64,000 nt of DNA from Candidatus Reidiella endopervernicosa. Lineage in GTDB: Bacteria > Pseudomonadota > Gammaproteobacteria > GCF-013343005. Positions within the stretch are counted from its first letter, which is position 1; the number at the start of each line of letters is the position of its first letter. The stretch lies in contig NZ_CP054491.1 of the NCBI RefSeq assembly GCF_013343005.1, forward strand, positions 2,710,501 through 2,774,500, read 5' to 3'. The position numbers were made by a program, and so were the translations under genes. Positions 25,132-28,643 of this stretch are shown here, in pieces. The notes below the pieces were generated by a model. That model saw only the letters and a list, made by a program, of their open reading frames with translations. It was not told where the DNA came from and did no database searches.

Positions 25132-25168
25132 GCAAAAAAAACGCCGGCAGTTGCCAGCGTTTTTTTCA
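25132..25168. terminator. Bidirectional terminator between yjbQ and the 637-residue gene
   Basis: An ACGC...GCGT stem with inner GGCA/TGCC arms is flanked by seven or more As on the left and seven Ts on the right. It serves the yjbQ gene from the left and the minus-strand gene ending at 25,197 from the right. Confidence 0.92.
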
Positions 25169-25196: not shown

Positions 25197-27110
25197 TTAG
25201 ATCAGCGAGAGACTGAGAATGCCTTCCATCTTCTCTGCGGTCTCAGACTTACCGGTACGGCTATCACCGACCAGCGCGATGGTAATATTGACCTCCTCAA
25301 CGTTACCACCCAGACGATCTCGTTTCTCTCGACCACACTGCTTGATCAGATGGATCAGATCCTGACCAAGACGCACTGGAGCGACCTGCTCAACATCATC
25401 ACGATCGCCATAGCCACAGCGCGTCAGATCCTCGTCACTGTTGCCACTGTAGACACCCGCCATCAGCTGACTGTGGGCGACACCGACGCGCATCTCGCCA
25501 CGATCGGCCAGCGCCTTCATCTCGCCAATAAACTGCCCCTCATTCTCTTTGTACTTCTCGTAGAGATCGGGATGCAGCACGGTGCCATCGTTATCGACCA
25601 GCAGTGGGAAGGGGTTGGCCCAGTAGCTACTCTCCTTGGCACCGCGATGGGTCTTGGTGCTACCCGCTGCCACACGCTCACCAAGGCGGAAATGTTCAAT
25701 CGCCGTCTCTACCGACATATTAGTATCGACAGTGCACTCACCCTCTTCTATAAGAGCGAAATTATTCATATAGAGCAGCGCATCGAGCACATGCCCCTGC
25801 GCTACCTCAGCCTCATCGGTTACCGGCACAATCTGGCGGGCGTTTGAACCCGTCTCCTTGTTGTAGCCGACCTCCTGTCCAATCATCTTGGTCTTGGCGT
25901 GCTCACTAAAACCATCCAGACAGGCAAAGGCTCCGGTCTCGGTACCAAAGAACATCAAACGGGCCAGGTTATCATCGCCCTTCTCCAGCGCTACTCGGCC
26001 CATGTCGTCGGCCTTAACCACCATTTCAGCAATATAGGGCTCACCCTCGCCATCAAAACGGACCACGTTACGCGTACAACCGCAATGCAGCGGCATCTCG
26101 CCATTACGGATCGCGAGCACATTGTGCAGGGTCAGAATCGGCTTCTTCGAATAGCCAAAATACTTCAGCTCATCGCGATCGGGCACCATGCCGATCAGCA
26201 TCTGGTTCTTCTCATCCCAGAAGTAACCGAGGTCGTTATCACCCGCATTGGGATCACCGAAGATGAAGATACCGTCGGGACGGCGGTTACTCTTGATCTC
26301 ATCAATACTGGCGAAGGGGAAGAGATTAAGCAGACCTGGTTCCATCTCAATCGAGCCACGTGACTTATTGATATAGGCAACGATAAGCGAACGACCTACC
26401 TGCAACGGCACTGATACCCACTCCTTGGCAACAAAATTACTTTCGTTGAAGGGGTTGTAGTCGAGCTCGTAGAAAGGATTGGCACGTTTGTTCGAGGGGG
26501 TTGAGTAGTCGACACCGGTTTTGATATCGGCTGCGATGGTCAGTGGCACATGGGCCAGTGAAGTGTAATCGGCAGGTAGATTGAGATAGTGACCCGAAAT
26601 CTCGCCAGCGGTTACGTTGGGAGTTGCATCCATACCCCAGGTACGACGAACACCAACCTCGAGCCCTACCTTCTGCATCAGCTGACGGCGCGTTTCAAGA
26701 ATCAGGTCGGAGAGTGCCTGGCTCTTCTCGGTGACTTTGTCTTTAACGGTATCGGGTGTTTCAGAACCGCTTGAGACAACGGCGTTCTGCAGACGTACCA
26801 GACGCGAGTAGGCAGTACTGCGGAAGTGGTGATAGGCGCCATCTAGAAAACGTACTAGCGCCCTCGCCTTCTCCAGCTGCTCTGAATCCGTCGGTGCAGG
26901 CTCATCAAGCAGCGCTACGATCTCAGTAATGCCAACATGTTCGATAAAACCAATCTTCTGTTGCGCCTCAGAGCGTTGGCGCTCATCGCGTCCCTGCAGC
27001 TCACGAATGAACTCCATCTTGTAGATGTTGAGGTACTTGGCAAAGGCGAGGCTCTTGAGCAGCTGTGCAGGCGTGCTACAGCCGTCACGGATTTCGAGGA
27101 TCTGTTCCAT
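25197..27110 (-). CDS. Unrecognised 637-residue protein with C-terminal P-loop
   Basis: I cannot place this protein in a characterised family. It begins MEQILEIRDGCSTPAQ, is soluble in composition, and has a conserved-looking middle (FPFASIDEIKSNRRPDGIFIFGDPN, then KKPILTLHNVLAIRNGEMPLHCGC, here in parts). Near the very end is VGDSRTGKSET (about residues 614-624), which closely resembles the phosphate-binding loop GDSGIGKSE of HPr kinase/PEPCK-type proteins. Only 13 residues and a terminator follow, so no Walker-B or nucleotide-binding core comes after it. In the next frame the last codons read SLADLMQQQG, so a small frameshift at the end is possible but not shown. A CsoR-type palindrome lies upstream. 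Confidence 0.7.
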   Translation of the reverse strand: MEQILEIRDGCSTPAQLLKSLAFAKYLNIYKMEFIRELQGRDERQRSEAQQKIGFIEHVGITEIVALLDEPAPTDSEQLEKARALVRFLDGAYHHFRSTAYSRLVRLQNAVVSSGSETPDTVKDKVTEKSQALSDLILETRRQLMQKVGLEVGVRRTWGMDATPNVTAGEISGHYLNLPADYTSLAHVPLTIAADIKTGVDYSTPSNKRANPFYELDYNPFNESNFVAKEWVSVPLQVGRSLIVAYINKSRGSIEMEPGLLNLFPFASIDEIKSNRRPDGIFIFGDPNAGDNDLGYFWDEKNQMLIGMVPDRDELKYFGYSKKPILTLHNVLAIRNGEMPLHCGCTRNVVRFDGEGEPYIAEMVVKADDMGRVALEKGDDNLARLMFFGTETGAFACLDGFSEHAKTKMIGQEVGYNKETGSNARQIVPVTDEAEVAQGHVLDALLYMNNFALIEEGECTVDTNMSVETAIEHFRLGERVAAGSTKTHRGAKESSYWANPFPLLVDNDGTVLHPDLYEKYKENEGQFIGEMKALADRGEMRVGVAHSQLMAGVYSGNSDEDLTRCGYGDRDDVEQVAPVRLGQDLIHLIKQCGREKRDRLGGNVEEVNITIALVGDSRTGKSETAEKMEGILSLSLI

Positions 27111-27695: not shown

Positions 27696-28643
27696 ATGTT
27701 CAAAACCAATTACAAACTAGCCACCCTTGCTGCCACCTTTTCAATGCTATTACTGACTGGCTGCAATAGCGGTAGTAGTTCAGGTAACAGCGCCGCCGCT
27801 GGCAGTATGACTCTTGGTATTACCGATGCCCCCGTCGATGGCGCAGAGTCGGTCATCATCGAGTTCACCGGTGTGGAGATTCAACCTGAATCGGGGGAAC
27901 TGATCTCGATTACATACGACGCCCCAAGAAGCATCGACCTACTGGCGTTACAGGGTGGCCTTCGTGACCTACTGCTTGATGGAGAGAGCCTGCCTGCTGG
28001 TCAATACAGCTGGATTCGACTGATGATCAACGCCGAGGCCGACAACATCTTCGACTCCTACATCGTGATTGGTGGCAACCAGTATGAACTCGACATACCC
28101 AGCGGGGCGCAGACAGGCCTAAAGCTGAACCGAAGTTTTGAAGTACCTGAGGGAATGTCGGTCGATCTGACCATCGACTTCGATCTGCGAAAATCGATCC
28201 ATATGCCCAGCTCTGGAACCGATTACAAACTAAGGCCTACACTTCGTAGTGTGGCAACGCCCGATTCGGGGATAATCAGCGGCACCATCGATCCAACACT
28301 GATACCGACCGAACGTTGCGCCGAGGATGCCGTCTACGCGATCTACCTCTTCCAGGGGCCCGCTGCCGTTATTGACGATCTCGCTGTCGATGGTGACGAG
28401 GCACCCGATCCAATCATTACCGTTAATGTTGATCTCGATGTCAGCAGCGGTAACTACAGCTTTACCATTCCCTATCTGGAACCCAACAGCTACACCGTTA
28501 CGGCCACCTGCAGTGCGCAGCTCGATGAACCCGACCAAAACGACTCTGAGTTGATGGGTTTCTACGGAACCACCGACGTGGTGGTTACCGCTGGTGAGGC
28601 GGGCACCATCAACTTCACCGAGAGCTCGGTCGCGCCACTCTGA
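27696..28643 (+). CDS. DUF4382 lipoprotein
   Basis: A 315-residue lipoprotein with a lipobox LLTGC after a hydrophobic signal, then a serine/glycine-rich linker. The mature part begins MTLGITDAPVDGAESVIIEFTG, the typical start of DUF4382, with LPAGQYSWIRLMI in the middle, and ends with a second beta-rich region similar to a carboxypeptidase-regulatory-like fold (GNYSFTIPYLEPNSYTVTA). The function is unknown, and it is probably anchored to the inside of the outer membrane. A GGGAG site precedes the ATG. Confidence 0.88.
   Translation: MFKTNYKLATLAATFSMLLLTGCNSGSSSGNSAAAGSMTLGITDAPVDGAESVIIEFTGVEIQPESGELISITYDAPRSIDLLALQGGLRDLLLDGESLPAGQYSWIRLMINAEADNIFDSYIVIGGNQYELDIPSGAQTGLKLNRSFEVPEGMSVDLTIDFDLRKSIHMPSSGTDYKLRPTLRSVATPDSGIISGTIDPTLIPTERCAEDAVYAIYLFQGPAAVIDDLAVDGDEAPDPIITVNVDLDVSSGNYSFTIPYLEPNSYTVTATCSAQLDEPDQNDSELMGFYGTTDVVVTAGEAGTINFTESSVAPL

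Follow-up and report, generated by a model that had tools for sequence, protein, structure and literature searches.

The 64,000-nucleotide stretch of Candidatus Reidiella endopervernicosa DNA analysed here (the window) carries a 637-codon open reading frame (ORF) with an ATG start on the minus strand (25197-27110), present in single copy in this one-contig genome of 3.45 Mb. The ORF is real and untruncated, and it very probably encodes an intact enzyme of the PEP carboxykinase (PEPCK) fold in which the P-loop has been relocated. The wider proposal, that a PEPCK-fold enzyme with its P-loop moved to the C-terminus carries out phosphotransfer in APS-dependent sulfite oxidisers, is one that we consider probable as a whole. 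The C-terminal end of the protein is ...ITIALVGDSRTGKSETAEKMEGILSLSLI* (also given as ...VGDSRTGKSETAEKMEGILSLSLI), and the gene and its P-loop are placed as follows:

25197..27110, minus strand: the whole gene, 637 aa, a predicted PEPCK-fold protein with a C-terminal P-loop (from the ORF, its relatives, the fixed end and the fold matches).
25242..25268, minus strand: the P-loop GDSRTGKSE, residues 615-623 (the longest invariant run in 52 sequences).

Relatives of this protein are encoded at 53 genome loci in a scan of species genomes, mostly in Gammaproteobacteria with a few in Burkholderiales or Betaproteobacteria, and the best local segments of these relatives are 50-74% identical to the window protein. 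In an alignment of 52 full-length sequences (the window protein, 49 of the 53 loci, and the proteins of genomes G141 and G350), GDSRTGKSE exceeds in length all other invariant runs, the next being WANPFP and AEKMEG, and it is kept at all 53 homologous loci. Together, the number of relatives and the invariance of this motif place the observation far beyond chance. The stop codon lies 7 residues past AEKMEG at 52 loci and 6 residues past it at the remaining one (L047), and the bases 3' of the stop vary from locus to locus. Synonymous codon variety is equivalent in the tail (1.47 bits) and at other invariant residues (1.50 bits), which shows that selection acts on the protein and not on RNA; an RNA signal behind the conserved end was ruled out on the basis of this normal codon entropy.

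The window protein has no match to Pfam or NCBIfam families or in PADLOC, and its sole match in PHROGs is at E 0.04. No DUF4914 (PF16260) profile match was found in the protein or elsewhere in its genome, and viral contigs contain no relative. PF01293 (PEPCK_ATP) does not match the window protein above the gathering score, and it weakly matches 9/34 family members, with a best E of 0.07. Searches of solved structures by sequence and profile returned chance-level matches or none, and no solved PEPCK.

The fold was predicted using AlphaFold for both the full protein (32 sequences; mean pLDDT 73.5, pTM 0.72) and the catalytic part, residues 164-637 (47 sequences; pLDDT 79.7, pTM 0.84, with five similarly confident models). 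PEPCKs rank first in each case: the full-length model matches them with a Foldseek E of 1.6e-9 and a VIA Z of 14.0, and the catalytic-part model with an E of 2.9e-12 and a Z of 16.4 (rmsd 3.9 over 345 residues). For the catalytic part, Foldseek gives 47 matches at E<=0.001, every one of them a PEPCK, and the row that follows has an E of 0.15. The TM-scores of these Foldseek matches (0.39-0.46 by query length) are moderate, a level consistent with lobes that would be set differently and with one displaced element. The VIA-aligned range (approximately residues 170-596) ends before the C-terminal tail, which in both models comprises a strand (approximately 606-615), a loop (616-619) and a helix (620-632); in the catalytic-part model, pLDDT is approximately 95 in the tail strand and 67 in the P-loop. 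An earlier note on this DNA had likened VGDSRTGKSET to the phosphate-binding loop of HPr kinase (HPrK)/PEPCK-type proteins, and the PEPCK fold of the models, as matched by both Foldseek and VIA, bears this out. The note had also held that the loop lies 13 residues from the protein end, which is correct for T624, and that the usual nucleotide core consequently cannot follow it; this core is instead present upstream of the loop, within the range matched to PEPCKs.

Comparison with reference ATP-PEPCKs taken from related genomes identifies the following active-site positions:

26142..26147, minus strand: K322-K323, on the invariant KK of ATP-PEPCK (alignment; invariant in 52 sequences).
26085..26087, minus strand: H342 (LHC), on the histidine of MHC in PEPCKs (alignment; invariant in 52 sequences).
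26004..26009, minus strand: D368-D369 (KADDMG), candidate Walker-B/metal site (invariant in 52 sequences).
25644..25646, minus strand: R489 (THRG), on the arginine of TERG in PEPCKs (alignment; invariant in 52 sequences).

In E. coli PEPCK numbering, we take K322-K323, H342 and R489 to be K212/K213, H232 and R333. To judge from sequence, D368-D369 are likely the Walker-B/metal pair matching PEPCK GDDEHG. Their DDMG is common to the Limosilactobacillus homologue described below; one automatic alignment sets the pair opposite the neighbouring SDDG instead. Like ATP-PEPCK (PF01293), the window family has YxGxxKK, (M/L)HC and T-x-RG in the same order within the same predicted fold (approximately 170-596). 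It differs in three respects: its P-loop is C-terminal and not mid-chain, it has an additional N-terminal region of approximately 165 residues that is mostly helical, and its Pfam similarity to these enzymes is marginal.

The history of the P-loop can be read from one distant homologue, Limosilactobacillus fermentum AYP99509.1 (569 aa, annotated as PEP carboxykinase), which was identified by tblastn and is the only relative in 72,556 plasmid records. It is also the only homologue with the canonical order that was found, there being none in 369 genomes of the class and 398 of the phylum. Its gene lies on a 252-kb plasmid (L074, 4947-6656), and phages and viral contigs contain no relative of it. 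AYP99509.1 is 28% identical to the window protein and is aligned to the family profile by hhalign at 99.9% (E 7.7e-32). In this protein, the P-loop (TVVFFGDSGAGKSESLEALQEI) follows the H strand (IHGSMVRIKF) and precedes IFDDMG, the arrangement seen in ordinary PEPCKs. In the window family, the P-loop between the MHC strand and the DD strand is missing, with a net 23 residues fewer (RNVVRFDGEGEPYIAEMVVKADDMG) at the position of the Limosilactobacillus P-loop, and a C-terminal one is present. The latter is part of an extension of approximately 44 residues (about 594-637) that the Limosilactobacillus protein, which also has a different gene context, does not possess. A profile of this extension alone matches the Limosilactobacillus internal P-loop at residues 354-370 (17 residues). 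The two sites are as follows:

26028..26072, minus strand: residues 347-361 (RNVVRFDGEGEPYIA), where excision appears to have occurred; the site is at the P-loop of the Limosilactobacillus homologue, relative to which a net 23 residues are missing.
25215..25295, minus strand: relocated strand-P-loop-helix unit, residues 606-632 (secondary structure, alignment and tail-profile match).

The change is best read as relocation of a segment and not as circular permutation. Homology to AYP99509.1 extends along residues 14-531, and since the N-terminal regions align in place from about residue 13, one unit would have moved while the rest stayed. Nucleotide motifs are also reordered in the YlqF-type circularly permuted GTPases, in which the entire domain has been opened and its original ends joined; in the window family, by contrast, only a single strand-loop-helix has changed position, and the N-terminus remains where it was.

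In the mechanism that we propose, the strand-P-loop-helix unit would have left its place between the strand of the metal-binding histidine and the DD strand and come to lie on a newly added C-terminal extension, with the remainder of the chain retaining its original order. A long helix (about 570-599) would bring the tail back and the strand at 606-615 would re-enter the central sheet, the tail thus filling the vacated P-loop slot in three dimensions. GDSRTGKS would grip the phosphates, K323, H342 and D368/D369 would hold metals beside R489 and the substrate, and the enzyme would transfer phosphate to or from an acid resembling PEP or oxaloacetate, with a nucleotide (or pyrophosphate) as the other partner. 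The suggestion in the earlier note that the loop has another use is unsupported: the loop most likely serves its usual purpose, but from a different position in the chain.

It is less likely, but deserves consideration, that the tail works in trans, as a domain-swapped P-loop unit completing the active site of a partner in an obligate oligomer. An extension that follows a 30-residue helix could reach another subunit, and the AlphaFold models are of monomers; however, the monomer model itself forms the tail strand with high confidence (pLDDT approximately 95), so a position in the sheet of the same chain seems available. We think it improbable that the ancestral P-loop was lost and that an unrelated one was later added at the C-terminus for regulatory nucleotide binding, leaving the core nucleotide-free. 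P-loop motifs, being short, occur frequently, and only 17 residues of the tail match the canonical loop, but the motif is of the same type (GDSxxGKSE), the missing and added units are alike in kind, and the added loop is at least as invariant as the core active site.

The distribution of the relocated P-loop enzyme points to sulfur metabolism. Among 369 genomes of the class, 19 were matched and 17 were counted as carrying the gene (including G043, in which it is split); G212 (a short chance match in an unrelated ORF) and G184 (a 54-residue remnant, counted as gene-less) were left out. In a phylum sample of 398 genomes, the genome of the window is the sole match. AprA is above the cut-off in 16/17 gene-bearing genomes versus 86/352 others (Fisher 6e-9, uncorrected for shared ancestry), and the single carrier in which it was missed, G098, is a genome that is 73% complete. 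Carriers appear to be mostly bacteria able to oxidise sulfur compounds.

Linkage to sulfur genes is seen at 5/53 loci and in two genomes, with loci that have short flanks covered only to the flank ends. In G141 and G350, the gene is divergent beside sat-aprM-aprB-aprA; at L033 it is directly upstream of aprMBA, and at L030, L031, L032 and L034 it is upstream of qmoA/qmoB/hdr-like genes. ATP sulfurylase and AprB among these neighbours were confirmed by Pfam, and the names AprM and Qmo are ones that we presume from position and similarity. No neighbourhood common to all 53 loci was seen, the largest neighbour cluster being present in 12, and the loci other than those linked to sulfur genes have no neighbourhood in common. 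In the window genome, aprBA and sat are near each other and far from the PEPCK-fold gene. That region (L077, G000:C1:92000-108000) has aprBA, sat and a large oxidoreductase with two subunits close together; we take these last to be a molybdopterin-type oxidoreductase with ferredoxin-like and NrfD-like subunits, and two sulfite-oxidation routes may coexist in this genome.

In G043 (L073, 257-2232) two separate ORFs of 418 and 231 aa make up the gene, and in G184, which belongs to the same genus, the 54-residue remnant is found at L071 (1387-1689). Both genomes retain AprA and Sat, and this genus may be losing the gene while the pathway stays. Given this apparent loss, and the 86 AprA genomes without an intact gene, APS-dependent sulfite oxidation can proceed without it. 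The AprA association and the apr/sat/qmo neighbours nevertheless make a role connected with this APS-linked metabolism likely, although not obligatory.

The same linkage to apr/sat/qmo genes would suit an HPrK-type regulatory protein kinase/phosphorylase that modifies a sulfite-oxidation protein, and the GKSE motif is HPrK-like: HPr kinase/phosphorylase has a Walker A of the GxxGxGKSE type, similar to the loop of the window family. We find this reading doubtful, as the predicted structure matches PEPCK for the greater part of its length and the KK, H and R of PEPCKs are retained. The window protein has no Pfam or NCBIfam match to an HPrK profile. The matches listed by Foldseek and VIA are mostly PEPCKs and do not include the HPrK fold, an absence that is not evidence either way.

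With respect to the reaction of the PEPCK-fold enzyme, the conserved residues suggest that PEP/oxaloacetate phosphotransfer is most likely: phosphate would pass from a nucleotide to an acid resembling PEP or oxaloacetate, or the reverse. A reaction like that of PEPCK itself is a tentative assignment, and one that forms pyrophosphate (PPi) is considerably more doubtful. The setting would be a bacterium that oxidises sulfite via APS reductase and ATP sulfurylase. According to PMC3779200, the ATP sulfurylase of sulfur oxidisers makes ATP from APS and PPi and also recycles biosynthetic PPi; a PPi-forming version of the enzyme would feed ATP sulfurylase. Known PPi-PEPCKs are described in PMC8100219 as unrelated to the ATP/GTP enzymes, which speaks against simply equating the window family with them.

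The 17 gene-bearing genomes were compared with 17 controls hand-picked from AprA-positive genomes (G184, with its remnant, among them). H+-PPase is present in 15/17 carriers versus 16/17 controls, soluble PPase in 14/17 of each, and Sat in 16/17 versus 17/17; the similar H+-PPase and soluble PPase content of the two groups is evidence neither for nor against a role in PPi supply. An ordinary PEPCK is encoded by 2/17 carriers versus 4/17 controls, and replacement of ordinary PEPCK by the window family is unsupported by these counts. Overall, gene content does not discriminate between the candidate reactions. There is a slight chance that transplantation of a Walker A unit without circular permutation has produced an enzyme that links the carbon and sulfur sides of energy metabolism; PEP, CO2 and phosphate, for example, would be converted to PPi and oxaloacetate, with ATP sulfurylase then producing ATP and sulfate from APS.

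Neither this protein family nor a PEPCK with a relocated P-loop is described in the titles and abstract openings searched, a literature set that mostly excludes subscription journals. The P-loop is often regarded as a founding and fixed element of nucleotide-binding folds; a strongly conserved family that carries this element at the opposite end of its chain would, if confirmed, be a natural experiment on the tolerance of a fold to reordering. It would also provide an uncharacterised enzyme, outside of any Pfam or NCBIfam family, that is tied to APS-dependent sulfite oxidation and whose role is directly testable.

Truncation or frameshifting of a gene that once encoded a longer kinase core after the loop is almost certainly not the explanation, despite the motif being near the stop and a short alternative frame being readable, as 53/53 loci end 6-7 residues past AEKMEG with nothing conserved beyond and the core is upstream. 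The comparison of homologue ends that the earlier note had called for thus refutes its proposed loss of a C-terminal part, the homologues having the same length and the same end, yet a kinase-type fold is present. The single indel that it invoked is unneeded given the shared stop region. Its alternative reading, SLADLMQQQG, can indeed be read across the stop, but the bases after the stop differ between loci and lend this frame no support. The terminator that it placed directly after the gene is probably represented by a strong hairpin:

25134..25167, no strand assigned: hairpin flanked on each side by A/T runs, a likely terminator that the convergent UPF0047 gene would also use (RNA fold).

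This hairpin has an RNA fold z of -5.0 and is absent from the output of a generic terminator scan; it is probably a bidirectional terminator between the PEPCK-fold gene and the UPF0047 gene. A lipoprotein-like ORF with DUF4382 is also found near the PEPCK-fold gene, at window positions 27696-28643.
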